Origin: Desulfosarcina alkanivorans | GTDB taxonomy: Bacteria > Desulfobacterota > Desulfobacteria > Desulfobacterales > Desulfosarcinaceae | Direction of reading: 5' to 3' | NCBI RefSeq assembly: GCF_009688945.1 | Contig: NZ_AP021874.1 | Span: forward strand, 1,798,001-1,862,000 | Length of the DNA stretch: 64,000 nt | Shown here: in pieces, positions 9,086 through 40,862 of the stretch | Position numbering within the stretch: the stretch's first letter is position 1 | How the letters are laid out: each line of letters starts with the position of its first letter | Made by a program: the position numbers and the translations under genes | The notes under the pieces: generated by a model | Told to the model about the DNA's origin: nothing | Databases searched by the model: none | The model's input: only the letters and a program-made list of their open reading frames with translations

Positions 9086-10885
9086 ATGGAAAAGACCATC
9101 AACCGAGTCTTTGTAAACCGGACCGATCAATACAGAAACCGGCTGGCCGTTGAAAAAAAGCGCAACGGTCGATGGGAAGGCGCCACCTGGCGCCAGTATT
9201 ATGACCGGTCGCGGGCGGTGGGGCTGGGACTGGCCGCACGGGGTGCCGAAAAGGGCGATCGGGTGGCCCTGCTGGCTGAAAACCGCCTGGAGTGGCTCTA
9301 CACGGACATGGGCACACTGGGCATCGGGGCCGTCCTGGTTCCCATCTACACGACCCTGACCGCCGAGGAAGTCGCCTACATTGTGGGCAACGCCGGCGCC
9401 CGGATCCTGGTGGTGGAAGACCCCGTACAGGCCGAAAAGGCGCTTTATGCAGCCCGGCGCTGCCCGCACCTGGAAACCATCGTGGCCATGGAAGCCGGAA
9501 CACTCACCCACGCCGGCCTGATCTCTTTTGCCGCATTGATGCAATCCGGCCTGGCGGCCCACCGGGCGGATGCGACCGCCTTCGAAAAAAAGGCCCGTGC
9601 CGTAGCTCCGGATGACCTGGCCACCATCGTCTACACGTCGGGCACAACCGGCGTGCCCAAGGGGGCCATGATCACCCACAGGAACATCATGGCCGTCATC
9701 GAGGCCCTTGACCGGATCACCCCCGGGTATGCCAATGAGGCGGACCAGGCCGTCCCCTTTCTCCCCTTGAGCCACGTGTTCGAACGGGCCGCCGGCCATT
9801 TTTACGGAATGTACAAGGGAATCACCGCCTCGTATGCCCAGAGCGTGAACACCGTTCTCGACGATTTCTCGGAAAAGCGCCCCACCATCATCCTGGCCGT
9901 TCCCAGGGTCTGCGAGAAGGTCTACCAGAAAGTTCTCATGCAGGTTGCGCAACAGCCGCCATGGCGCCGGAAGGTCTTCGACTGGGGGCATCGCATCGGC
10001 GTCCGCATCTCCACGCTCCGGGAAGAGAAAAAAACGGTGCCGGCCCTCCTTCACCTGAAATACCGGCTGGCCTACGCCCTGATATTCAAACGCCTCCGCC
10101 GGGCGCTGGGCGGGCGCGTGCGGTGGATGACCGCTTCGGGGGCGCCCACCGCACGGGAAATCATCCTTTTTTTCAACGCCGCCGGCATCCAGGTCGTGGA
10201 GGGCTACGGCATGACTGAGTGCTTCGCGCCGGCCACCATGAGCAATCTGGCCGACTACCGGATCGGAACGGTGGGCAAGCCCCTGCCGGGCGTGGAAATC
10301 AGGCTGGCCGAAGATGGAGAAATTCTCATACGCGGCGACAATGTATTCAAGGGCTACTGGAAGATGCCCGCCGAGACGGAAGCGGCATTCACCGAAGATG
10401 GCTTTCTGAAAAGCGGGGACATCGGAAGTTTCGACGGCGCCGGATTCCTTAAAATCACCGATCGCAAAAAAAACCTGATCATCACTTCCGGCGGAAAGAA
10501 CATCGCCCCCCAGAAAATCGAAAACCTTTTTTTAAGCGACCCGCTGTTCACCTATTTCATCGTCATCGGCGAGCGCCGCAAATTTTTAAGCGCCCTGCTC
10601 ACGGTCAACCTGGACCAGGCCGCCCTGATTGCACAGCAGCAGGGCATCGCCTTCGGCGATGCGGCGGAACTGCTGGACCACCCCTCGTTCGTGGGCATCG
10701 TCGACGCCCATGTGGCCGAACGGAACGGCCACCTGGCCCGCTACGAGACGATCAAGCGCTACCGGATCATCAAAAAAGCGTTCTCCCGGGAAAACGGCGA
10801 GCTGACCCCGTCCCTGAAGTTGAAGCGCAATGTGGTGCAGGAACGATACGCCGGCCTGATCGAGTCCATGTACGCCGATGCGTGA
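9086..10885 (+). CDS. Long-chain acyl-CoA synthetase (AMP-binding)
   Basis: An ATP-dependent acid-CoA ligase of the ANL superfamily, 599 aa, of the long-chain type. The phosphate-binding loop is VYTSGTTGVPKGAM at about 182-195. Further motifs are FLPLSHVFERAAGHFYGMYKG, VVEGYGMTEC and the hinge DIGSFDGAGFLKITDRKKNLIITSGGKNIAPQKIE. The C-terminal catalytic lysine region is present (GELTPSLKLKRN). It activates a hydrophobic carboxylic acid to its CoA thioester by way of an acyl-AMP. The ATG at 9086 follows CAGGGAAGCC. It leads a plus-strand gene row with the DUF35/thiolase pairs, so the product acyl-CoA is likely their substrate. Confidence 0.9.
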   Translation: MEKTINRVFVNRTDQYRNRLAVEKKRNGRWEGATWRQYYDRSRAVGLGLAARGAEKGDRVALLAENRLEWLYTDMGTLGIGAVLVPIYTTLTAEEVAYIVGNAGARILVVEDPVQAEKALYAARRCPHLETIVAMEAGTLTHAGLISFAALMQSGLAAHRADATAFEKKARAVAPDDLATIVYTSGTTGVPKGAMITHRNIMAVIEALDRITPGYANEADQAVPFLPLSHVFERAAGHFYGMYKGITASYAQSVNTVLDDFSEKRPTIILAVPRVCEKVYQKVLMQVAQQPPWRRKVFDWGHRIGVRISTLREEKKTVPALLHLKYRLAYALIFKRLRRALGGRVRWMTASGAPTAREIILFFNAAGIQVVEGYGMTECFAPATMSNLADYRIGTVGKPLPGVEIRLAEDGEILIRGDNVFKGYWKMPAETEAAFTEDGFLKSGDIGSFDGAGFLKITDRKKNLIITSGGKNIAPQKIENLFLSDPLFTYFIVIGERRKFLSALLTVNLDQAALIAQQQGIAFGDAAELLDHPSFVGIVDAHVAERNGHLARYETIKRYRIIKKAFSRENGELTPSLKLKRNVVQERYAGLIESMYADA

Positions 10886-11031
10886 GTCAGGATCGAGGCA
10901 TGGCGGATCGACGGACTGAAGACCGGAAGCGGCGCGGAGCACCACGAGCGGTGCCCGCCGATCCATAAACCACCAACGACAAACCGGAATCCAACATCCC
11001 GAAACCTGGTACGAACGAGGACACAGCAATC

Positions 11032-11499
11032 ATGAGCCATTCTTTGACGCAGGTGGATCCCATGGTGGTTCGCAGCCGGATCAGCGTGCCTTACACCTGG
11101 TGGGCCGGTGATACGGCCGGTCGGTTTCTCAGCGCCCTGCGCGACGAGCAGACGATCCTGGGAACCCGCTGCGAACGCTGCCAGAGGGTTTTCGTGCCCC
11201 CGAGAAAGGTCTGTCCGACCTGCTTTACCCCCAACGACGACTGGACGGCCGTTTCCGATGAAGGGACGGTGACCGCATTCACGGTGGCCAGGCGGCAGCT
11301 GGCGGCGATTGCCCGGCCGGTGCCGGTGATCTTCGCCCTGATCCGCCTGGACGGCGCAGATACGGCGCTGCTGCACACCATCGGCCGCACCGATCCGGAC
11401 CGGGTCGCGATCGGCATGCGGGTCAGGGCCTGCTTTTCAGGGAAAGCCGGAGCAACGATAGCGGCCATCTCCCACTTTGAACCGGTGGACCACCAGTAA
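11032..11499 (+). CDS. DUF35 (Zn-ribbon plus OB-fold) protein, first copy
   Basis: A 155-aa acyl-CoA-associated protein. A rubredoxin-like Zn ribbon (CERC, 12 residues, CPTC, at about 44-62) is followed by an OB fold. Proteins of this family do not work alone: BbsA with BbsB in anaerobic toluene degradation, and the DUF35 partner of Ltp2 in steroid side-chain degradation, form complexes with thiolase-like subunits and complete the CoA site. The next gene, 24 bp downstream, is such a thiolase-like protein, so the two probably form a heteromer. The spacer before it contains degenerate AACCATA-type repeats at 10963-11010. Confidence 0.85.
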   Translation: MSHSLTQVDPMVVRSRISVPYTWWAGDTAGRFLSALRDEQTILGTRCERCQRVFVPPRKVCPTCFTPNDDWTAVSDEGTVTAFTVARRQLAAIARPVPVIFALIRLDGADTALLHTIGRTDPDRVAIGMRVRACFSGKAGATIAAISHFEPVDHQ

Positions 11500-11523
11500 T
11501 CTCGAATTTACGGGAATATCGCT

Positions 11524-12663
11524 ATGGACAGCGCAGCAATTGTAGGCATGGGGATGACCGCCATCGAGAAGAACAAGACCGGCGACAATTTTGCCGACAT
11601 GGCCTGGGAGGCGGTCAACCTGGCCCTGGCCGATGCAGGGATGTCCATCGACGACATCGACAATGTGGTCACCACGTCCAACGATTTCTGGGACGGGCGC
11701 ACCATCAGCTGCATGGCGGTGAGCGACGCCAGCGGTGCCCGCGACAAAAACGTCTCCTGCGTGGAGGGAGACGGCACCTTCGGCGCATTTTATGGATTGA
11801 CGCGCATTCTGTCCGGCGCTTACGGCACCACCCTGGTGACGGCCCACAGCAAGGGCTCGGAAAGCGTCTCCAGCCTGATCACCAATGCCGCCTTCGACCC
11901 CATTTACGAACGCGCCATCGGCATGGATATGATCAGTGCCTGCGCCATGCAGGCCAATGCCTACCAGCACCGCACCGGCACCACGGCCCGCCAGCTGGCC
12001 CGGGTGTCGGTGAAGAATCACGGCAATGCCCGCCACAACCCCAAGGCCCAGCTGCCCATGGCGATCACCGTGGACGATGTGCTGGCCTCGGAAATGATCT
12101 GCGATCCGCTCCACAAACTGGACTGCTCGCCGGTGTCCGACGGCTGCTGCGCCCTGATCATCGCCGGCAGGGATCGGGTGGGCTGCGGGACCAAACCGCC
12201 CGTGTGGATCAGGGGCGCGGCCTTTTGCACGGACGCCTATCACCTCGGGGACCGGGATCTCTCCCGGGCGGCGGCCCTGACCCGGGCAGCCAGAAAGGCC
12301 TTTGCCATGGCCGGTATCACCGATCCGTCCGGGCAGGTCCATGTGGCCGAGCTTTACGACGCCTTCACCTACCAGGAATTGATGTGGCTGGAAGCCATGG
12401 GATTATGTGCCGACGGCCAGGCCGGAAAACTGGTGGAAGCCGGCGCCTTCGACATCGGCGGCCGGCTGCCGGTGAACCCCTCGGGCGGACTGCTCAGCGG
12501 CCATCCGGTCATCGCCGCCGGCCTGATCCGCATGGCCGAGGTGGTCCGCCAGCTGCGCGGCGAGGCGGGCGGCGCCCAGGTCCGGAATCCGACCGTGGGC
12601 GTGGCCCAGGGGGTCAACGGGCTTTGCGGGCAGTCGCACTGTGTCTGGATTCTTGGAACCTGA
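11524..12663 (+). CDS. Thiolase-like protein with conserved Cys and His, first copy
   Basis: A thiolase-fold protein of the SCP2/lipid-transfer type, 379 aa. The nucleophile position is occupied by Cys79 (NVSCVEGDG). The GHP motif with His327 (SGGLLSGHP) and the C-terminal Cys368 (GLCGQ) are also present, so thiolytic chemistry is possible. It directly follows the first DUF35 gene, as BbsB follows BbsA-like genes. The likely reaction is thiolysis or retro-condensation of a beta-keto acyl-CoA; the substrate is unknown. The ATG at 11524 has only a weak upstream site (GGGAATATCGCT), suggesting coupling to the preceding gene. Confidence 0.85.
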   Translation: MDSAAIVGMGMTAIEKNKTGDNFADMAWEAVNLALADAGMSIDDIDNVVTTSNDFWDGRTISCMAVSDASGARDKNVSCVEGDGTFGAFYGLTRILSGAYGTTLVTAHSKGSESVSSLITNAAFDPIYERAIGMDMISACAMQANAYQHRTGTTARQLARVSVKNHGNARHNPKAQLPMAITVDDVLASEMICDPLHKLDCSPVSDGCCALIIAGRDRVGCGTKPPVWIRGAAFCTDAYHLGDRDLSRAAALTRAARKAFAMAGITDPSGQVHVAELYDAFTYQELMWLEAMGLCADGQAGKLVEAGAFDIGGRLPVNPSGGLLSGHPVIAAGLIRMAEVVRQLRGEAGGAQVRNPTVGVAQGVNGLCGQSHCVWILGT

Positions 12664-31435: not shown

Positions 31436-33562
31436 ATGCCGGAACCATCCACCATCCGACTCGATAAACTGCTCGACCACCCCGCGGTTGCGGACGCCGT
31501 GGCCGATGTCAATCTGGAACTGAAGGAGAGAATCGCCTACCAGCCCCCGGCGTGTGAGGTGTTCGACCGGAAATTCACCACCCTGGAAACCGACCCCGGG
31601 TACCAGTTCGACATCGACAAGGAAGCCCGCCGCCGGTTGTCCCACATCATCGGCAACACGGTGCAGCGGGTCGTGGGAAGCGATGACCCCGGCGATGCCG
31701 CCGGGGCCGACTATGGCAAGGCACGCCGGATCGGCATCGTCTTCTCCGGCGGCCCGGCCCCCGGCGGCCACAACGTCATCGCCGGCCTGTTCGACGCCGC
31801 CAGACGCGTCAATTCGCAGACGCGGCTGTTCGGATTCCTCATGGGGCCCGACGGCATCATCGACGGCGACTACGTTGAGCTGACCCGTGACCTGGTGGAT
31901 CGCTATCGAAACGTGGGCGGGTTCACCATGATCAAGACCGGCCGCACCAAGATCGACAACGAGAAGAAAATGACCCTGTCCCGGGAAACCTGCAAGCAAC
32001 TGGGGCTGGACGCCCTGGTGGTGGTCGGCGGGGACGACTCCAACACCAATGCCGCCTTTCTGGCCCAGGAGATGTTTGCCGACGGCATCCAGGTCATCGG
32101 CGTTCCCAAGACCATCGACGGCGACATTCAGGTTCGCGACGCCCGGGGCCGGGTGCTCTGCGCCATGTCCTTTGGATTCCACACCGCCGCCCGCGCCTTC
32201 TCCCAGGCCATCGCCAACCTGTGCACCGACGCCAGTTCGGACGTGAAGTACTGGCACGTGTGCAAAGTCATGGGCCGCGTGGCCAGCCACCTGGCCCTGG
32301 AAGTGGCCCTTCAGACCCACGCGAACATCACCCTGATCGGCGAGGACCTGGCCGACTATGTGGACCATGCCCGCCTCGAAAAAGCCGAACGGGAGGGCGT
32401 GGTGGACTACACCGCCTACGGCATGACCCTGCGGCACCTCTCGAGGGTGATCTGTGACGCCATCATGGACCGGGCCGCCGTGGGAAAAAGCTACGGCGTC
32501 CTGGTGATCCCCGAAGGGGTGCTGGAATTCATCAACGAGATCCAGACCTTCATCATCAAGTTCAACACGATCATCGCCAACTACAACCAGGTGCACGACC
32601 GGGATTTTCACACCGCCTTTCCCACCCTGGACGACAAGCTGGAGTACCTGCGCCGCCTGGTGAGGGGCATCCGCAAAGACGTCTCCTATAACGTGTGGAA
32701 TGCCCGGGACGACGAGCTGTTCAACGACATTCCCGCTTTCTTCCAGGAAGGGCTGCTCACCGAACGGGACAGCCACGGCAATTTTCAGTTCTCCCAGGTC
32801 AAGACGGAAAAAGTGCTCCTCGACCTGGTGAAAGACTACCTCAATATCTTAAGGGAGAAGGGCCGCTACAAAATCGGCATCGATGCGGCACAGTTCGCCA
32901 AGACGATGCAGAAGGGGGGGCTGGACCCGGAGCGCTACGGCCCCGTTCTTTTCGACAACTGGGAACAGGCGCGCTACCTGATGATCAAAAAAAACATCAT
33001 CTCCAGAAAAACCCTCACGGCAGCGCTGGTCAATGCCGGCTTTCTGGGCGCCGACGATCCCATTCCGCCGCCGGTCGAGAAGATCTTCGAGCAGTCCGTA
33101 CCCAAGCTGAAAACCCAGACCCACTTCTACGGCTACGACGGCCGGGGCAGCGATCCGACCCGGTTCGACTGTATCTACACCTACAACCTGGGCCGGACCG
33201 TATTCAGCCTGATCGCCAACGGCGCCACGGGACAGATGGCCGCCATCCTGAATCTGGAGCAGGATTTTTCCAGCTGGCGCCCCATCGGCATCCCCATTGC
33301 CCCGCTCATGCACCTGGAAGAGCGCAAGGGGAAACTGGAACTGGTGCTGGAGAAAAGCATCGTGGACGTCAACGCCCCCGCCTTCCGGGTGGTCCAGGCG
33401 CTGCGCGGCCACTGGCTGGCCGCCGCCCCGGGAGAAGACCACTACCGCCACCCGGGCCCCATCCGGTTTGCGGGCAACAGCGAGGAGAACCGCCCCATCA
33501 CGCTGCTGCTCAACGCCATGGGGGGGCATCTGTGCGGGCAGGAGGAGAAGGCGGGCGAATAA
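31436..33562 (+). CDS. pfp: Diphosphate-dependent 6-phosphofructokinase
   Basis: A 708-aa PPi-type phosphofructokinase. It reversibly phosphorylates fructose-6-phosphate with pyrophosphate in glycolysis and gluconeogenesis. The ligand motif GGPAPGGHN lies at about 105-113. GGDDS (197-201) replaces the GGDGS of ATP enzymes, the usual sign of PPi use, and PKTIDGD lies at 223-229. The length is of the long group that includes plant PFP and many sulfate reducers. CCAGGAGGGCTGA precedes the ATG. The gene appears monocistronic. Confidence 0.93.
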   Translation: MPEPSTIRLDKLLDHPAVADAVADVNLELKERIAYQPPACEVFDRKFTTLETDPGYQFDIDKEARRRLSHIIGNTVQRVVGSDDPGDAAGADYGKARRIGIVFSGGPAPGGHNVIAGLFDAARRVNSQTRLFGFLMGPDGIIDGDYVELTRDLVDRYRNVGGFTMIKTGRTKIDNEKKMTLSRETCKQLGLDALVVVGGDDSNTNAAFLAQEMFADGIQVIGVPKTIDGDIQVRDARGRVLCAMSFGFHTAARAFSQAIANLCTDASSDVKYWHVCKVMGRVASHLALEVALQTHANITLIGEDLADYVDHARLEKAEREGVVDYTAYGMTLRHLSRVICDAIMDRAAVGKSYGVLVIPEGVLEFINEIQTFIIKFNTIIANYNQVHDRDFHTAFPTLDDKLEYLRRLVRGIRKDVSYNVWNARDDELFNDIPAFFQEGLLTERDSHGNFQFSQVKTEKVLLDLVKDYLNILREKGRYKIGIDAAQFAKTMQKGGLDPERYGPVLFDNWEQARYLMIKKNIISRKTLTAALVNAGFLGADDPIPPPVEKIFEQSVPKLKTQTHFYGYDGRGSDPTRFDCIYTYNLGRTVFSLIANGATGQMAAILNLEQDFSSWRPIGIPIAPLMHLEERKGKLELVLEKSIVDVNAPAFRVVQALRGHWLAAAPGEDHYRHPGPIRFAGNSEENRPITLLLNAMGGHLCGQEEKAGE

Positions 33563-34156
33563 GGAAATCCGCACAAAAATACCCGGGACCCGGGGAGAGT
33601 CATCCCTGAAAAGGCTGTCGACAGCCATCTAAATTGCAATCAAGGGTCCAAAAACCATTGCCGCAACACTAAATGAAAGGCACACAAATGATCCAATAGG
33701 ATCTATGGGGGGGTAAAAATGGATACCGGCTTGGTCGTGCTATCGATTCCTTTAACTATTTTTACTGTAACCATTTCAGTGATTTTATTCAGTGCATATT
33801 GGAAATCTCCCAGCGATGAAGGACATTCCTTTGAAATGGTTTCGAAACTTTTGATTAAGATTCTAAGTATTTTTTCACCATTCTCAAAAAAATAGATAAT
33901 GCTATCGCTGTTTTTTAGTGCTACTTCTGCAATCAACAGCAAATAGCACCCAACCAGCTATTAAAACTTTGAGGATAGATATGGCTGCCTTCTTTAAAAT
34001 CTACAAGTTGTTTCCATATCCTCAATATTTTTATTAGGTAACAATCGAAATTCCAGTTGGTGGTTCGATTAATAATACCTTATGTGATATCGAGACACAC
34101 CAGTAAACTCCTATTAACACTCTTCATTTCTATCTATCAATCAAAGAAACTGTGAA
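33563..34156. other. Gene-poor AT-rich spacer at the left edge of an island
   Basis: 594 bp with no convincing gene. Base composition falls sharply after about 33630. A perfect 14-bp palindrome, GGCTGTCGACAGCC, lies at 33613-33626 at this boundary. A minus-strand frame of 79 codons (33703-33942) with a TTG start has no ribosome binding site and no recognised family, so I do not call it. The promoter of the deaminase gene should be near the right end. Confidence 0.4.
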
Positions 34157-35206
34157 ATGAACGCGATTAAGACCCTGATAAATAAATGTGAAATTCGTTT
34201 AGATACCAATGAAAAAACAGAAACGTTTTACAAATCATTAAGAGAATTAGTTACTTTTCTATTTTCCGTTATATTTGGTATTGGCCTTTACCAATTATCT
34301 GAAGTTGATACAAAATACGAGACAATTGTTTTGTTTTTGGCCTATATTTCTATTTTATTAAGCTGGTGGGGGTATCATTGGGGGAAAGTACAAGGACCAG
34401 AAGAAACAAATGTTTTGTGCTATGTAGTCGATTGTTTATTACTAGGAACTTATTGGTATTTAATTAACGACAGATATCCTATATCCAATGTTTTCCGAAA
34501 TTATTTCTTTATGTTTCTTTTGTACTGGGCATGGGAAGCCATAAGATATTTAAAAATCGAATTAAGTGAAGTTGAACGCTCTAAAATTAAAAAAGCAAAA
34601 ATAACAAATTTTCTATTTACACTATTAATGATTTATTTTTTATTTATAATATATGATAAAAATATTGGAACTGATAACAATGTACCGAAGAAAATTCTTG
34701 ACGGTTCTACCGGTGAATGGTTTCTAATTCTATCCCAGTATTTCTTTATTATCCTCTATAGATTTTTGATACATAAAGCTTATAAAACCCCAAAGGTTTC
34801 AGCCCCAATCCTTGAACATCAAAATAAAGATGATAAAAGGCTAATTAAAGAGGCTATTGCAGCTTCAAATAATGCGAAAGCCTATTTATCCAATTTTAAT
34901 GTCGGCGCAGCCATTTTAACACGCAATGGCACTATATTTAGAGGTTGCAATATAGAATTTGACAACTATTCAAACACAATACATGCAGAAGGATCTGCAA
35001 TTAGCTCTATGATCATAAATGGTGGTATTGATCCGGTTGCAATTGCAGTTTTCACTCGTAGTGAAAAACTCGCATTCTCATGTGGGATGTGCAGGCAGTC
35101 TTTATATGAAGTAGGTGGACCTAACTTAAGAGTTATAACCTGTAACGAACTTAATTGTAGTATTAAAACTATGGAAGAACTTCTTCCAGAAGGATTTCAT
35201 TTATGA
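34157..35206 (+). CDS. Six-TM membrane protein fused to a cytidine deaminase domain
   Basis: A 349-aa two-part protein. Residues 28-207 contain about six hydrophobic segments (near 30-47, 55-73, 84-103, 113-131, 150-167, 188-206). Residues 225-345 form a CDA-type deaminase domain: SNFNVGAAILTRNGTIFRGCNIE, the zinc/proton-shuttle HAE (276-278) and the second zinc motif SCGMCRQ (Cys309, Cys312). All catalytic elements are therefore present. The domain should face the cytoplasm and deaminate a cytidine or deoxycytidine compound. The gene is far lower in GC than its surroundings, with AT-rich codons, which suggests transfer. Its TGA overlaps the start of a decayed nucleotidase gene as ATGA. I know of no named family with this fusion. 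Confidence 0.8.
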   Translation: MNAIKTLINKCEIRLDTNEKTETFYKSLRELVTFLFSVIFGIGLYQLSEVDTKYETIVLFLAYISILLSWWGYHWGKVQGPEETNVLCYVVDCLLLGTYWYLINDRYPISNVFRNYFFMFLLYWAWEAIRYLKIELSEVERSKIKKAKITNFLFTLLMIYFLFIIYDKNIGTDNNVPKKILDGSTGEWFLILSQYFFIILYRFLIHKAYKTPKVSAPILEHQNKDDKRLIKEAIAASNNAKAYLSNFNVGAAILTRNGTIFRGCNIEFDNYSNTIHAEGSAISSMIINGGIDPVAIAVFTRSEKLAFSCGMCRQSLYEVGGPNLRVITCNELNCSIKTMEELLPEGFHL

Positions 35207-35746
35207 AAAATAAACTATTTATATTTGACATTGCTGGTGTTGCTTGTGACCATGCCAGTCAAGTTTGCACTTGGATTAATGAAGAATATGGTTAAAATAG
35301 CAAACCTGATGATGTAGTTAGTTGGGATTATGATCTTGGTCCTATTAATTTTTTGGATGCTGTTGAAAAATACTACCAGATAAGCAACTTCATACTAACT
35401 ATGGAAGTATACCACGGTTTTAATGAATTATTGTCTATTATTTCAAATTTAATGGACGTCATCTTCGCAACGAATAGACAATATTCAGACAAAGAAACTA
35501 AAAAATGGCTTAATGAAAAATTTGGAAAATTTGCAGTGGGGTTTGTAAGTAATACAAACTGACATTAACTTTGATTTCATATTAGAAAATTATCCCAATT
35601 CAGCTATTGCTGCTGCAAAAGCTGGAAAGACCAGCTTTTTAATTGAACGGCCATGGAATAATTGCCAAGAATTTCTCTACTATCATAAATAACACCCAAA
35701 ATACTTATTTCGTATCGAATTTTAATGAAATACTTAGCTCGATTAG
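35203..35746 (+). pseudogene. Decayed HAD-family 5'(3')-deoxyribonucleotidase
   Basis: The frame opens MKNKLFIFDIAGVACDHASQV, the motif I region of HAD nucleotidases, but the second catalytic Asp is Ala (DIA for DxD). A TAA at 35293-35295 interrupts it. It then reads on in frame (PDDVVSWDYDLGPINFLDAVEKYYQ..., VIFATNRQYSDKETKKWL) to a TGA at 35560-35562. A +1 frame then gives DINFDFILENYPNSAIAAAKAGK...LIERPWNN to 35692, the motif IV and C-terminal region. A further shift gives VSNFNEILSSI. At least three lesions make it a pseudogene. It overlaps the deaminase stop codon by ATGA, so the two were once a coupled operon. Confidence 0.75.
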
Positions 35747-35790
35747 ATTTATTTCCTTTTCCTTCCAAAAAACACTTTTAGTATGTTTGA

Positions 35791-36045
35791 TTTCTACTTA
35801 CGATAACCACTCCAACCGAAAAACACAATTTACTCTCGGGAAGCATTCGAAGGACCCAGGACTTAACCCGGTCCTATATCGAACTCATCAATGCCATGCC
35901 GGTGGAATGCGCTCCCGAGTACGTACCGCAGATAAAGGCAGGCGCTCAACAAAAAAGCAGGGATGCCGAGCAACGGATAAACACCGGAAGTGTTTTTACC
36001 ACTGCATCCGACACGGCCTATAAGCCATCACCAATAGGGGTTTGA
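35791..36045 (+). pseudogene. Possible 3' remnant of an unknown gene at the island's right edge
   Basis: An open frame of 84 codons without a credible start ends in RSYIELINAMPVECAPEYVPQIKAGAQQKSRD and SDTAYKPSPIGV. Its last 65 codons are GC-rich like the surrounding chromosome, while the upstream part is AT-rich. It may be the tail of a gene cut by insertion of the island, with the junction near 35830-35850. I do not recognise the family and the call is weak. Confidence 0.25.
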
Positions 36046-36116
36046 TTAGCGGGGCGCGGTTTTTAGATTTTTGTCCACGGACTTTCCCCGGATCAACGCG
36101 CTTGTGTCCCGACGCG

Positions 36117-36677
36117 TCACTTCCACCCCACCGGCGGAAACTGAGACAGGATCCTGTCCACCGTTTTCTGCATGGCCGCATCAGCCGCCGCCGGGGTTTT
36201 ATGGGTTTTCAACCGGTACACCCCCACCCCCCGCCAGAGCAGTGCATCCGTCCCGGCCGCACGGATATCGATGGTCAGCCGGCTCTCGTCATACTGGTAA
36301 ACGCGCGTGTCGGCGCCCATGCCGCCGTACCAGGGGTGGTGGTACCTTCCCACGCCCACCGATGAATAGTAGGAATCGCTCTGGATCTTCCGTTCGATAG
36401 CCAGGTGATAGACCAGGTGCAGATCCGGTCGTTCCACGGCAGGGCGGATGTTGCGGCCCGTCAGGTGGGCCTCGACGGCCCGGCGGATGCGGCCGTCGAG
36501 CAACGGATTGTCAACGCGGATATCCCCGGTCGCCCGCTGAACCGGATCCTTCCACTGCCAGGTGCCATAGTGCGAGAGATCCTTATGGGGGTCGTAATCC
36601 TGGCTCACCTGAACCGTTGAGCAGCCGGCCATGAAAATGACCGCCAGCAGAAAAACACCGGAACGCATCCACATCAT
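36117..36677 (-). CDS. DUF4136-type lipoprotein
   Basis: A 186-aa lipoprotein starting at the ATG at 36677, five bases after GGAGG. The signal peptide MMWMRSGVFLLAVIFMAGC gives an acylated Cys at 19. The mature domain begins VQVSQDYDPHKDLSHYGTWQW, the DUF4136 signature, followed by RIRRAVEAHLTGRNIRPAVERPDLHLVYHLAIERKIQ and a C-terminal DGRILSQFPP-type helix. It probably sits in the outer membrane facing the periplasm; the function is unknown. Confidence 0.8.
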   Translation of the reverse strand: MMWMRSGVFLLAVIFMAGCSTVQVSQDYDPHKDLSHYGTWQWKDPVQRATGDIRVDNPLLDGRIRRAVEAHLTGRNIRPAVERPDLHLVYHLAIERKIQSDSYYSSVGVGRYHHPWYGGMGADTRVYQYDESRLTIDIRAAGTDALLWRGVGVYRLKTHKTPAAADAAMQKTVDRILSQFPPVGWK

Positions 36678-39011: not shown

Positions 39012-40862
39012 TCACTCGGACAGGACCGAATCGATCTCTTCCAGAAACCGGCTGCGGGGGTTGAACTGGCCCTTGCGAAAATTGGCGGAGGTGATGAACA
39101 GGCAGCGTTCCGCCCGGGTCACCGCCACGTACATGAGCCGGCGCTCCTCTTCCAGATCGTCGGCGCTGTCCATGGACCGCCAGTGGGGAAACAGCTGTTC
39201 TTCGCACCCGATCACGAAAACCGTGTGAAACTCCAGGCCCTTGGCACCGTGAACGGTGGACAGGTTGACGCCGGCGGATTCCTCCTCGTCATCCTTGTCC
39301 TCACGGACCAGGGCGGCCTCTTCCAGGTAGTCCACGATGGTCTCTTTCTGGGAGGCGGCGTGGATCAGCTGGTCGATGTTTTCCTGCCGGGCGGTAAAAT
39401 CCATGGAATTGGAGCGGGTGTAGTTTTCCAAGTGATCCATGTATCCGGTGCGGGCGATCACTCGCCGGATGGCTTCGTCGGGGGCCAGGTCCCGGATCTC
39501 GTCGAGCAGCGCCAGGAGCGCTTTCAGCCCGTTGTACAGTTTGGGCGTGAGCACCCGTTCGGCCACCGCCTGCCGGGCGGCCTCTTTCAGGCTCATGGAT
39601 CCGCTGCGCATCCCTGAGATCTTTTTCACGGTGCCCGGGCCGATGCCCCGCTTGGGCGTGTTGAGGACCCGTTCGAAGGCCGTGTCGTCCTTGTCGAACA
39701 CCGCGGCGGTGATATAGCAGTTGAGATCCAGGATCTCCACCCGGTCGAAAAAGCCCTTGCCGCCCATCATGCGGTAGGGAATGTGCGCCCGGCGAAATGC
39801 CTGCTCGAAAGGCAGGCTGCAGAACTTGGTGCGATAGAGCACCGCCATCTTTTCGTATGGGATGTTCATGCGCACCATGCTGCGAACCTTGTCCGCCACC
39901 CAGCGGGCCTCCTCCTGGTCGGTGACAAATTCATGGGTTTCGACCACCCCGCCTTCCTTTTCCGAAAAACAATCCTTTTCCATGCGGCTTTCATTGTGGC
40001 CGATCACCCGGTTGCCCAGCTGCACGATTTCGTCGGCGCTGCGGTAGTTCTGCTCCAGCCTGAAAATCCGGGCGCCCGCGTACTTCTTCTTGAAGGAAAG
40101 AAAGTGGCTGACGTTGCTCATCCGGAAGGAATAGATGGACTGCCAGTCGTCGCCCACGGCAAACAGGTTCCCGTCCCTGAGCAGCAGGGCGGTGATCTCC
40201 TCGTTCAGGTCGTTGGTGTCCTGGTATTCGTCGCACAGGATGTACTGGAATTCGGCCTGGTAGCGCTCCCGGATGTCCGCATGGTCCCGCAGCAGGTTGC
40301 GGGTCAGCAGCAGGATGTTGTCGAAATCCACGGCATTGGCCGCCTTCAGGCGCGCTTCATATTTCTGGTAGACATCGACCAGGCGGATGTTGCCCTGCCG
40401 GGGATGGCGGTCAAAATATGCACCGGGATGCCCGCTGTTCTTGGCGTTGGAAATCTGCCCGAGCACCCCCATGGCGTGTTTTTTATCGTAATTGAGGCCC
40501 AGCAGCACCTCCTTGACCGTCTTTTGCTGGTGGTAGGTCGTAAAGACCTGGAGGGGCGGATGGAAATCAAGGCGGTCGCTGTGTGCCTTGAGGATCTGGA
40601 AACAGGCACTATGGTAAGTGCGCACCCAGGGAAAGCGCGAAAGCCCCATTCCGGTCATCTGAATCAGGCGGCCCTTCATTTCTTCGGCCGCCTTGTTGGT
40701 AAAGGTAATCGCCAGAATGTGTTCCGGCGGCAGGCCCGATTGGACCAGGTGGGCGAATTTGGCGGTCAGGGTACGGGTTTTTCCCGACCCGGCGCCGGCC
40801 ACGACCAGGGCCGGCGATCCGGTATGTTCGACAGCGGCTTGCTGCTGGGGTGAAAGCTGCAT
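39012..40862 (-). CDS. UvrD/Rep-family ATP-dependent DNA helicase
   Basis: A 616-aa superfamily 1A helicase, shorter than UvrD or PcrA (about 720). Motif I is VVAGAGSGKTRT (about 21-31), motif II LCDEYQDTN, motif III GDDWQSIYSFR, motif IV RLEQNYRS, motif V VSTVHGAKGLEF and motif VI YVAVTRAERCLFI. It unwinds DNA 3' to 5' in repair or restart. The C-terminal tail after motif VI is very short (about 28 residues), so the RNA-polymerase-binding Tudor domain of UvrD/PcrA is absent, making it more Rep-like. The gene stands alone on the minus strand. Confidence 0.9.
   Translation of the reverse strand: MQLSPQQQAAVEHTGSPALVVAGAGSGKTRTLTAKFAHLVQSGLPPEHILAITFTNKAAEEMKGRLIQMTGMGLSRFPWVRTYHSACFQILKAHSDRLDFHPPLQVFTTYHQQKTVKEVLLGLNYDKKHAMGVLGQISNAKNSGHPGAYFDRHPRQGNIRLVDVYQKYEARLKAANAVDFDNILLLTRNLLRDHADIRERYQAEFQYILCDEYQDTNDLNEEITALLLRDGNLFAVGDDWQSIYSFRMSNVSHFLSFKKKYAGARIFRLEQNYRSADEIVQLGNRVIGHNESRMEKDCFSEKEGGVVETHEFVTDQEEARWVADKVRSMVRMNIPYEKMAVLYRTKFCSLPFEQAFRRAHIPYRMMGGKGFFDRVEILDLNCYITAAVFDKDDTAFERVLNTPKRGIGPGTVKKISGMRSGSMSLKEAARQAVAERVLTPKLYNGLKALLALLDEIRDLAPDEAIRRVIARTGYMDHLENYTRSNSMDFTARQENIDQLIHAASQKETIVDYLEEAALVREDKDDEEESAGVNLSTVHGAKGLEFHTVFVIGCEEQLFPHWRSMDSADDLEEERRLMYVAVTRAERCLFITSANFRKGQFNPRSRFLEEIDSVLSE

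Follow-up and report, generated by a model that had tools for sequence, protein, structure and literature searches.

Results and discussion

A membrane-linked cytidine deaminase and its companion nucleotidase in an AT-rich insertion

Desulfosarcina alkanivorans carries, in an AT-rich insertion of roughly 2.2 kb, a gene that fuses six modelled membrane helices to a cytidine deaminase (CDA) domain and that is followed directly by the remnant of a HAD-type nucleotidase gene. The pairing of a membrane-linked CDA with a HAD recurs in another phylum and exists in fused, split and damaged forms; thus, it is a real family and not a local accident. The membrane domain lies outside every family in the libraries that we used, so a known enzyme is found here in a new architecture. 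The leading explanation for the locus is that it is a decaying copy of a mobile nucleotide-depletion conflict cassette, a reading that we put forward tentatively and at somewhat less than an even chance. All coordinates refer to the window, i.e., the whole stretch of 64,000 nucleotides that was analysed, and its features are collected in Table 1.

Table 1. Features of the insertion and its right border in the window
Feature	Position	Strand	Evidence
AT-rich inserted segment between pfk and the peptidase C69 remnant (both edges approximate)	33567..35799	.	GC; same-genus comparison
N-terminal membrane domain of the fusion (residues 1-209; six helices in the model)	34157..34783	+	structure model; hydropathy 5/6; 45 invariant positions
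Cytidine deaminase domain (residues 220-349) and stop codon	34814..35206	+	PF00383 3.8e-16; PDB CDAs to 6.4e-18; B. subtilis CDA fold
HAD remnant, piece 1 (has the start codon; motif I reads DIA; stops at TAA 35293-35295)	35203..35292	+	phrog_420 across pieces 1-2
HAD remnant, piece 2 (same frame, past the TAA)	35296..35559	+	phrog_420 alone E=2.1e-5
HAD remnant, piece 3 (next frame)	35558..35689	+	shuffles 0/500, 1/500; tblastn 8.6e-4
Possible last HAD piece, third frame (suggestive only)	35688..35750	+	16/1000, 35/1000 shuffles
Host peptidase C69 gene remnant (3' end) beside the insertion	35800..35977	+	tblastn 3.2e-8 to the C69 protein of G002/L058

The cytidine deaminase domain

In the ORF list of the window, the forward-strand ORF at 34157-35206 encodes the fusion protein of 349 amino acids. 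By motif, fold and family score, its C-terminal domain is a tetramer-type cytidine deaminase, with one curated cut-off missed; a tetrameric assembly would be expected from its family. The Pfam match to PF00383 spans residues 224-321 and reaches 59.3 bits against a cut-off of 25, and the equivalog PRK05578 is passed with 98.5 against a cut-off of 74. TIGR01354 is matched with E=7.7e-30, but the score of 103.8 bits falls short of the curated NCBIfam cut-off of 113.65. Based on a PDB sequence search, the nearest solved structures are ordinary cytidine deaminases, and the modelled domain matches the B. subtilis CDA structure with a TM-score of 0.86, normalized by the target. In a fold search of the PDB, the best 50 of 440 matches (E up to 10) were all CDA-fold deaminases, while the matches listed from a viral library were deaminases or weak.

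The original prediction had described this domain as intact, with the motifs HAE (276-278) and SCGMCRQ (308-314, with CGMC at 309-312), and both the positions and the strong family matches bear it out: H276, E278, C309 and C312 are present, and the H/C/C zinc ligands, the catalytic Glu and the NxE motif (CNIEF), which is a nucleoside-binding motif, are all retained. Among the 34 CDAs that we compared, both zinc Cys, the catalytic Glu, and the Asn and Glu of NxE are invariant, while the third zinc ligand is His in five and Cys in 29. Loss of the conserved catalytic residues across the family had been named as an observation that would speak against a depletion system; instead, the catalytic residues are retained in every copy. 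Two residues flanking the zinc site of the window CDA are unusual, which makes its activity uncertain. The residue after the catalytic Glu is Gly in the window, Glu in the four nearest relatives and Arg in the other 29, and the residue preceding the first zinc Cys is Ser, as opposed to Pro in 32 of the 34. Judging from the alignment, these odd neighbours may represent an early stage of deaminase decay, or simply drift.

The window protein shares with Cdd (TIGR01354; B. subtilis CdA, PDB 1jtk/1ux1) the entire CDA domain, including the catalytic Glu, the NxE motif and the zinc ligands, except that its third zinc ligand is His in place of the Cys of Cdd. It differs further in its N-terminal six-helix membrane domain, in the linked nucleotidase gene and in its score below the TIGR01354 cut-off.

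The membrane domain

The structure model (mean pLDDT 73, from an alignment of only six sequences) places the six helices at residues 19-49, 53-73, 86-104, 109-131, 138-170 and 184-209. This is in line with the six membrane segments claimed initially, although a hydropathy scan detects only five, the fourth helix staying below the scan threshold of 1.2. Across four homologues, 45 positions of the domain are invariant, and three of the invariant residues are acidic and fall within the modelled helices (E30, D92 and E127). Lys and Arg residues on the side formed by the N-terminus, loop 2-3, loop 4-5 and the C-terminus outnumber those on the other side by 15:5 in the window and by 13:2, 15:4 and 20:2 in the relatives, a comparison in which the K/R-rich segments are also longer than those of the opposite side. 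Since the bias holds in each of the four sequences, we place the CDA in the cytosol.

The outer loops measure 4-9 residues, with the exception of loop 5-6 of the window copy (19 residues). Loops this short make a receptor for outside signals unlikely, and no sensor domain was found; the earlier suggestion that the membrane part senses damage or infection received no support. The membrane domain has no family match in Pfam, NCBIfam, PADLOC or the PDB. Two candidate assignments were rejected: DUF1345, which appeared in Pfam with E=0.018 on one homologue, far below the cut-off, and a TMEM175-like fold, which was dropped because no such family came up in the Pfam scans.

Transporters often carry acidic residues within helices, and E30, D92 and E127 would give the membrane part a transporter-like aspect. 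They agree with an alternative in which the nucleotidase and the deaminase together render a toxic cytosine nucleoside analogue, or the phosphate of one, harmless, with the membrane part holding the enzyme near the point of entry or aiding the export of the product. The small foreign cassette lodged between housekeeping genes would fit such a detoxifying role, and the CDA-fold relatives include blasticidin-S deaminase, as a structural match and as a weak sequence match (1.4e-4). Nevertheless, the membrane part matches no transporter family, and the CDA stands much closer to ordinary cytidine deaminases (6.4e-18) than it does to blasticidin-S deaminase. We consider detoxification unlikely.

The broken HAD nucleotidase

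The stop codon of the fusion overlaps the start codon of the nucleotidase as ATGA at 35203-35206. The frame of the remnant begins MKNKLFIFDIAGVACDHA and meets a TAA at 35293-35295, and its DxD motif I reads DIA, as compared with DID in both intact relatives and DVD in the remnant of the planctomycete locus L002. The overlap, the altered motif and the stop codon had all been noted in the original prediction and are present as it described them. The family phrog_420 matches positions 35200-35559 (E=1.4e-10), reading across one TAA, while pieces 1 and 2 remain below a match to the Pfam NT5C model.

Pairwise comparisons with shuffled sequences show how the individual pieces relate to other HADs. 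Piece 1 resembles the HAD start left in L002 (none of 500 shuffles reaches the score; tblastn 9.6e-7), and on its own it gives no signal against the two intact HADs (183/500 and 152/500 shuffles). Piece 2 gives a weak signal against the HAD of L010 (24/500) and none against that of L003 (277/500). Because the pairwise signal of these two pieces against the intact HADs is so small, their identity rests on the phrog_420 profile. Piece 3 resembles the C-terminal half of the intact HADs, with 0/500 shuffles reaching the score for L003 and 1/500 for L010. For the last piece, 16 of 1000 shuffles reach the score against the C-terminal 60 residues of the L010 HAD and 35 of 1000 against those of L003; the corresponding numbers for the whole proteins are 22 and 155, and the best alignments to the whole HADs fall elsewhere.

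As read from the assembled sequence, the window nucleotidase is a decayed HAD, as had been proposed, with an altered motif I, a stop codon and one frame change. The DIA is a substitution and is therefore not an indel error. Of the at least two frame changes claimed before, the one near 35558 is supported by the comparisons of piece 3, whereas the second, near 35688, is suggestive only.

Recurrence of the pair in Planctomycetota

A scan of species genomes yielded 21 candidate stretches, two of which contain relatives that align with the fusion along all or most of its length; both are from Planctomycetota. Over the best segment, the identity to the window fusion is 42% for L002 and 39% for L003. 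A second copy, L010, lies in the L002 genome on the same contig, 260 kb from the L002 copy. This planctomycete genome thus holds two diverged copies, one split and with an intact nucleotidase (L010, 4600-6383) and the other fused and with a decayed one (L002, 9288-10463).

At L003, the fusion gene is followed by an intact HAD of 200 residues that starts 14 bp past the CDA stop codon. At L010, the module is split into three consecutive genes, for the membrane part, the CDA and an intact HAD in this order, with gaps of 11 and 12 bp. At L002, the fusion precedes a 48-codon frame whose start is like that of HAD piece 1 of the window. Further HAD pieces downstream of this frame were searched for with tblastn, and none appeared at E < 0.1. 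The L002 remnant gives no pairwise signal against the intact HADs (283/500 and 168/500 shuffles), so it is tied to them only via piece 1 of the window. Altogether, a HAD nucleotidase or its remnant stands behind the CDA in all four copies of the membrane module, from three genomes and two phyla, and is intact in two, both planctomycete. This answers in the affirmative the earlier question of whether such a nucleotidase recurs beside homologues of the fusion.

Both intact HADs retain the DxD motif and an acidic EDD motif and match phrog_420 with 1.9e-12 and 9.4e-15. The L003 HAD exceeds the Pfam NT5C cut-off (34.5 bits against 24.8), and the L010 HAD stays below it. Both have weaker matches to phage families that bear the names polynucleotide kinase and nucleotidase. 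These assignments suggest that the HAD family is a small-molecule, probably nucleotide, phosphatase whose substrate is not fixed by the family; phrog_420 itself is matched in 10 of 14 control cellular genomes, and the structure model of the HAD is poor (mean pLDDT 49). The closest named enzyme is the NT5C-type 5'(3')-deoxyribonucleotidase (PF06941, phrog_420), with which the module shares the above-cut-off match of the L003 HAD and the phrog_420 matches of the intact HADs and the window remnant. Unlike NT5C-type enzymes, the module HAD sits directly behind a membrane-linked CDA; moreover, the L010 HAD misses the NT5C model and the window copy is broken.

The insertion and its history

Two 1-kb bins have GC contents of 0.31 and 0.36, while the other 62 bins of the window range from 0.46 to 0.68, in agreement with the AT-rich island described at the outset. 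The GC content is 0.332 over positions 33567-35865 and 0.605 in the flanks. Each of the four cassettes is poorer in GC than its surroundings: 0.317 against 0.605 in the window, 0.391 against 0.546 at L010, 50% against 61% at L003 and 47.5% against 54.5% at L002.

The island lies between pfk (PF00365) on the left and a DUF4136 gene on the right. In the 12 other genomes of the genus, the pfk piece to its left was matched in every case, in some only partly, and the fusion was absent from all 12, one of which is only 63% complete. The stretch following pfk was compared in nine of them. In two (L060 and L061), the genes found right of the island in the window come after pfk with no island between; the distance between the flanking matches is 94 bp in L061 versus 2611 bp in the window. 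In a third (L058, genome G002), pfk is followed by a peptidase C69 gene (PF03577, E=5.4e-9 for the protein), and in the other six only pfk was matched, with L063 cut by the end of its contig. The island is a real insertion that seems to have taken the place of most of a peptidase C69 gene. The C69 remnant in the window contains an internal stop codon and a frame change, whereas the whole gene adjoins pfk in L058.

None of the direct and inverted repeats listed for the window convincingly flanks the island, and the repeats near L010 and L002 define no clear cassette ends. The 64-kb window contains one tRNA, approximately 5 kb from the island. Promoter-like sites in the region are fewer than in shuffled sequences (5 versus 10.3), and terminator-like sites are somewhat more numerous (4, all on the minus strand, versus 1.7). 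A hydrophobic ORF of 58 amino acids (33719-33895) lies within the island upstream of the fusion; it has no Pfam match and no relative among the other loci compared.

We built a tree of 34 CDAs (the four module CDAs, one from a viral contig and 29 from Planctomycetota genomes; midpoint root, bootstrap not fully settled). The module CDAs form a clade (97/87), with the viral-contig CDA as its sister (100/99) and L012 as the next neighbour; the other 28 stand apart. With the linked CDAs in a single clade, the window in one phylum and the remaining copies in another, the tree is most simply explained by transfer between phyla. The sister sequence is a single cytidine deaminase at 1432-2025 of the viral contig L011.

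Rarity and a possible phage origin

Among 97 genomes of the order to which the window belongs, its own included, five have matches to the fusion, and in four of these the matches cover the CDA only. In 294 Planctomycetota genomes, 103 matches were obtained, one of which spans the membrane part. With a profile of the membrane domain, matches were found in 1 of 392 Planctomycetota genomes, 2 of 148 genomes of one planctomycete order, 1 of 291 genomes of the class of the window and 1 of 395 of its phylum, the last two being its own genome; these samples overlap, and all matches fall among the three genomes already known. Since pattern-based scans reach only fairly close relatives, more copies may exist, and the module may extend beyond the three genomes. 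With so few members, the family does not allow co-occurrence statistics.

No viral contig matched the membrane profile, and no plasmid matched the membrane part of the window. Of the searches of viral contigs with the module, one gave no relative and the others gave CDA-only relatives; the CDA clade is represented in one viral contig. Matches to the whole fusion protein come from 45 plasmid and 15 phage records, and none of them extends over 80% of the protein; the plasmid and phage matches listed cover at most 48% of the protein and always include CDA residues. The HADs have nothing close in viral contigs, the L010 HAD has nothing in plasmids, and piece 2 of the window remnant has no relatives in phages or plasmids.

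These searches bear on the idea that the module is phage-derived cargo, i.e., phage genes for nucleotide breakdown that serve to recycle host DNA, became fused to a membrane part and were stranded in chromosomes. The nearest CDA outside the family is that of the viral contig, 52-54% identical and sister in the tree, and the HAD belongs to a PHROG family. A precedent is phage T5, which makes a 5'-nucleotidase, as stated in the excerpt of PMC10511110 and in a reference title within PMC12265719. However, phrog_420 also occurs in 10 of 14 control cellular genomes and was not found in the viral contig L011, the viral contigs lack the membrane profile and the plasmids the membrane part, neither set holds close HADs, and no phage genes were recognised near the copies. 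A phage origin of this kind is thus, in our estimation, quite improbable.

Genomic neighbours

We scanned 31 neighbouring ORFs across the copies with PADLOC-DB 2.0.0; L003 is cut at its 5' side by the end of its contig. Strong matches were obtained for three: a UvrD-type helicase in the window, a sugar-type ABC ATPase at L010 and a ClpC-type ATPase at L003. All three types of proteins share domains with defence proteins. The remaining neighbours gave E-values of 5e-4 or worse, or no match. The helicase (39012-40862, approximately 3.2 kb to the right of the island) matches 52 PADLOC families, among them GajB with 4.8e-97. The ten window neighbours scanned yielded no match to a GajA partner, and for this reason we judge the helicase to be a housekeeping protein. 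The ABC ATPase and the ClpC-type ATPase also read as housekeeping proteins. Downstream of L003 are a GNAT gene, a serpin gene and the ClpC-type gene.

No recognisable defence island was found by PADLOC around any copy. We therefore rejected membership in a defence island, which the original prediction had proposed checking, since the neighbours look like housekeeping or unknown genes. The module proteins themselves gave little: the window fusion and one HAD piece have no PADLOC match at E up to 1, and four of the six module proteins of the relatives have weak matches only (E 0.008-0.08). As judged by these profile searches, the module is filed under no known anti-phage system in PADLOC-DB 2.0.0.

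The L010 copy lies between the genes of a sugar-type ABC transporter and purM/purF-like genes. This location beside transport and purine synthesis would suit a role in pyrimidine salvage or catabolism, through which the host gains a route from CMP or dCMP, or from imported cytidine, to uridine. The enzyme pair makes the known route from CMP to cytidine to uridine, and in a host without another Cdd-type CDA the module could simply supply the missing step; in our reading, the five other places with PF00383 in this host are TadA, a dCMP deaminase, RibD, a TadA-like protein and an exported deaminase-like protein. On the other hand, salvage needs no membrane anchor, no pyrimidine kinase or phosphorylase gene was recognised beside the copies, whose neighbours are partly annotated, and the gene is rare and decaying and has not spread through the genus. 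We regard salvage as a rather unlikely explanation, although a serious one.

A possible nucleotide-depletion cassette

The leading explanation, a conflict cassette that depletes nucleotides, can be laid out as follows. A rare, horizontally moving cassette would encode a six-helix membrane anchor, a cytosolic tetramer-type CDA and, directly downstream, a HAD 5'-nucleotidase. The nucleotidase would turn cytidylate or deoxycytidylate into cytidine or deoxycytidine, and the deaminase, acting at the inner face of the membrane, would turn these into uridine or deoxyuridine, two serial reactions that we infer from the enzyme families. The pool of cytidine nucleotides would thereby be drained as a conflict response, anti-phage and abortive, under the control of the membrane part; the response and the controlling role are the least certain elements of the proposal. 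In the window, where the nucleotidase is dead, only the anchored deaminase could still act. Furthermore, the loss of the nucleotidase from two of the four copies indicates that it may be dispensable.

A role in defence is favoured by the mobility of the cassette, by its isolated and foreign character, by its decay and by the resemblance of its enzymes to effectors; the lack of defence neighbours, of a strong PADLOC match for the module and of an identified sensor counts against it. Of the depletion defence suggested originally, the pairing of the two enzymes, the catalytic residues and the decay have held up, while the defence island and the sensing have not. A more specific version is a new anti-phage system in which this hitherto undescribed membrane domain, with invariant acidic residues within its helices, switches on the CDA tetramer when infection disturbs the membrane. 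The nucleotidase would supply the tetramer with nucleosides, and the cytidine nucleotides of the cell would collapse; the fused form, the split form and the form that lacks the nucleotidase would then be variants of one system. This version seems doubtful to us.

Enzymes of both kinds serve elsewhere as anti-phage effectors, according to the excerpts of PMC12715507 for a HAD phosphatase and of PMC10511110 for a cytidine deaminase. As described in the excerpt of the latter, AvcD deaminates dCTP and dCMP and is controlled by an RNA antitoxin. The module would likewise drain the deoxycytidine pool by deamination, but in contrast to AvcID, as that excerpt presents it, it has a CDA of the nucleoside type, accompanied by a nucleotidase and a membrane part. 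An Rfam scan of 33400-36300 gave no match. The CARF-HAD effectors of type III CRISPR systems (Chp) dephosphorylate dATP, ATP and IMP, as given in the excerpt of PMC12715507; they would resemble the module in using a HAD phosphatase to remove nucleotide phosphates, in their case as an immune effector. Unlike Chp, the module HAD has no CARF domain match, and its partner is a deaminase. In the same excerpt, the conserved HAD residues were not essential for the toxicity of one CARF-HAD effector; hence, the family alone may be a weak guide to function.

Nucleotide depletion is a growing theme in bacterial immunity, and a nucleoside deaminase that is anchored in the membrane and works with a nucleotidase would constitute a new architecture if the proposal is true. 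The two intact planctomycete copies make the proposed architecture testable. If the function is instead detoxification or salvage, the locus would still present a new membrane domain on a textbook enzyme. Among the titles and abstracts listed in our search of openly available papers, none describes a membrane-fused cytidine deaminase with a nucleotidase.

Two further observations concern sequences related to, or adjacent to, the module. The D. alkanivorans genome carries an intact phrog_420 HAD at G000:C1:90261 (locus L077, G000:C1:89800-91400), beside an apparent xerC-type recombinase gene. At L002, two ORFs downstream of the module (10556-11167 and 11215-12039) matched nothing in Pfam or PADLOC, and nothing in NCBIfam above a cut-off; with a GC content of 0.49 against 0.545 around them, they may belong to the same foreign segment as the cassette.
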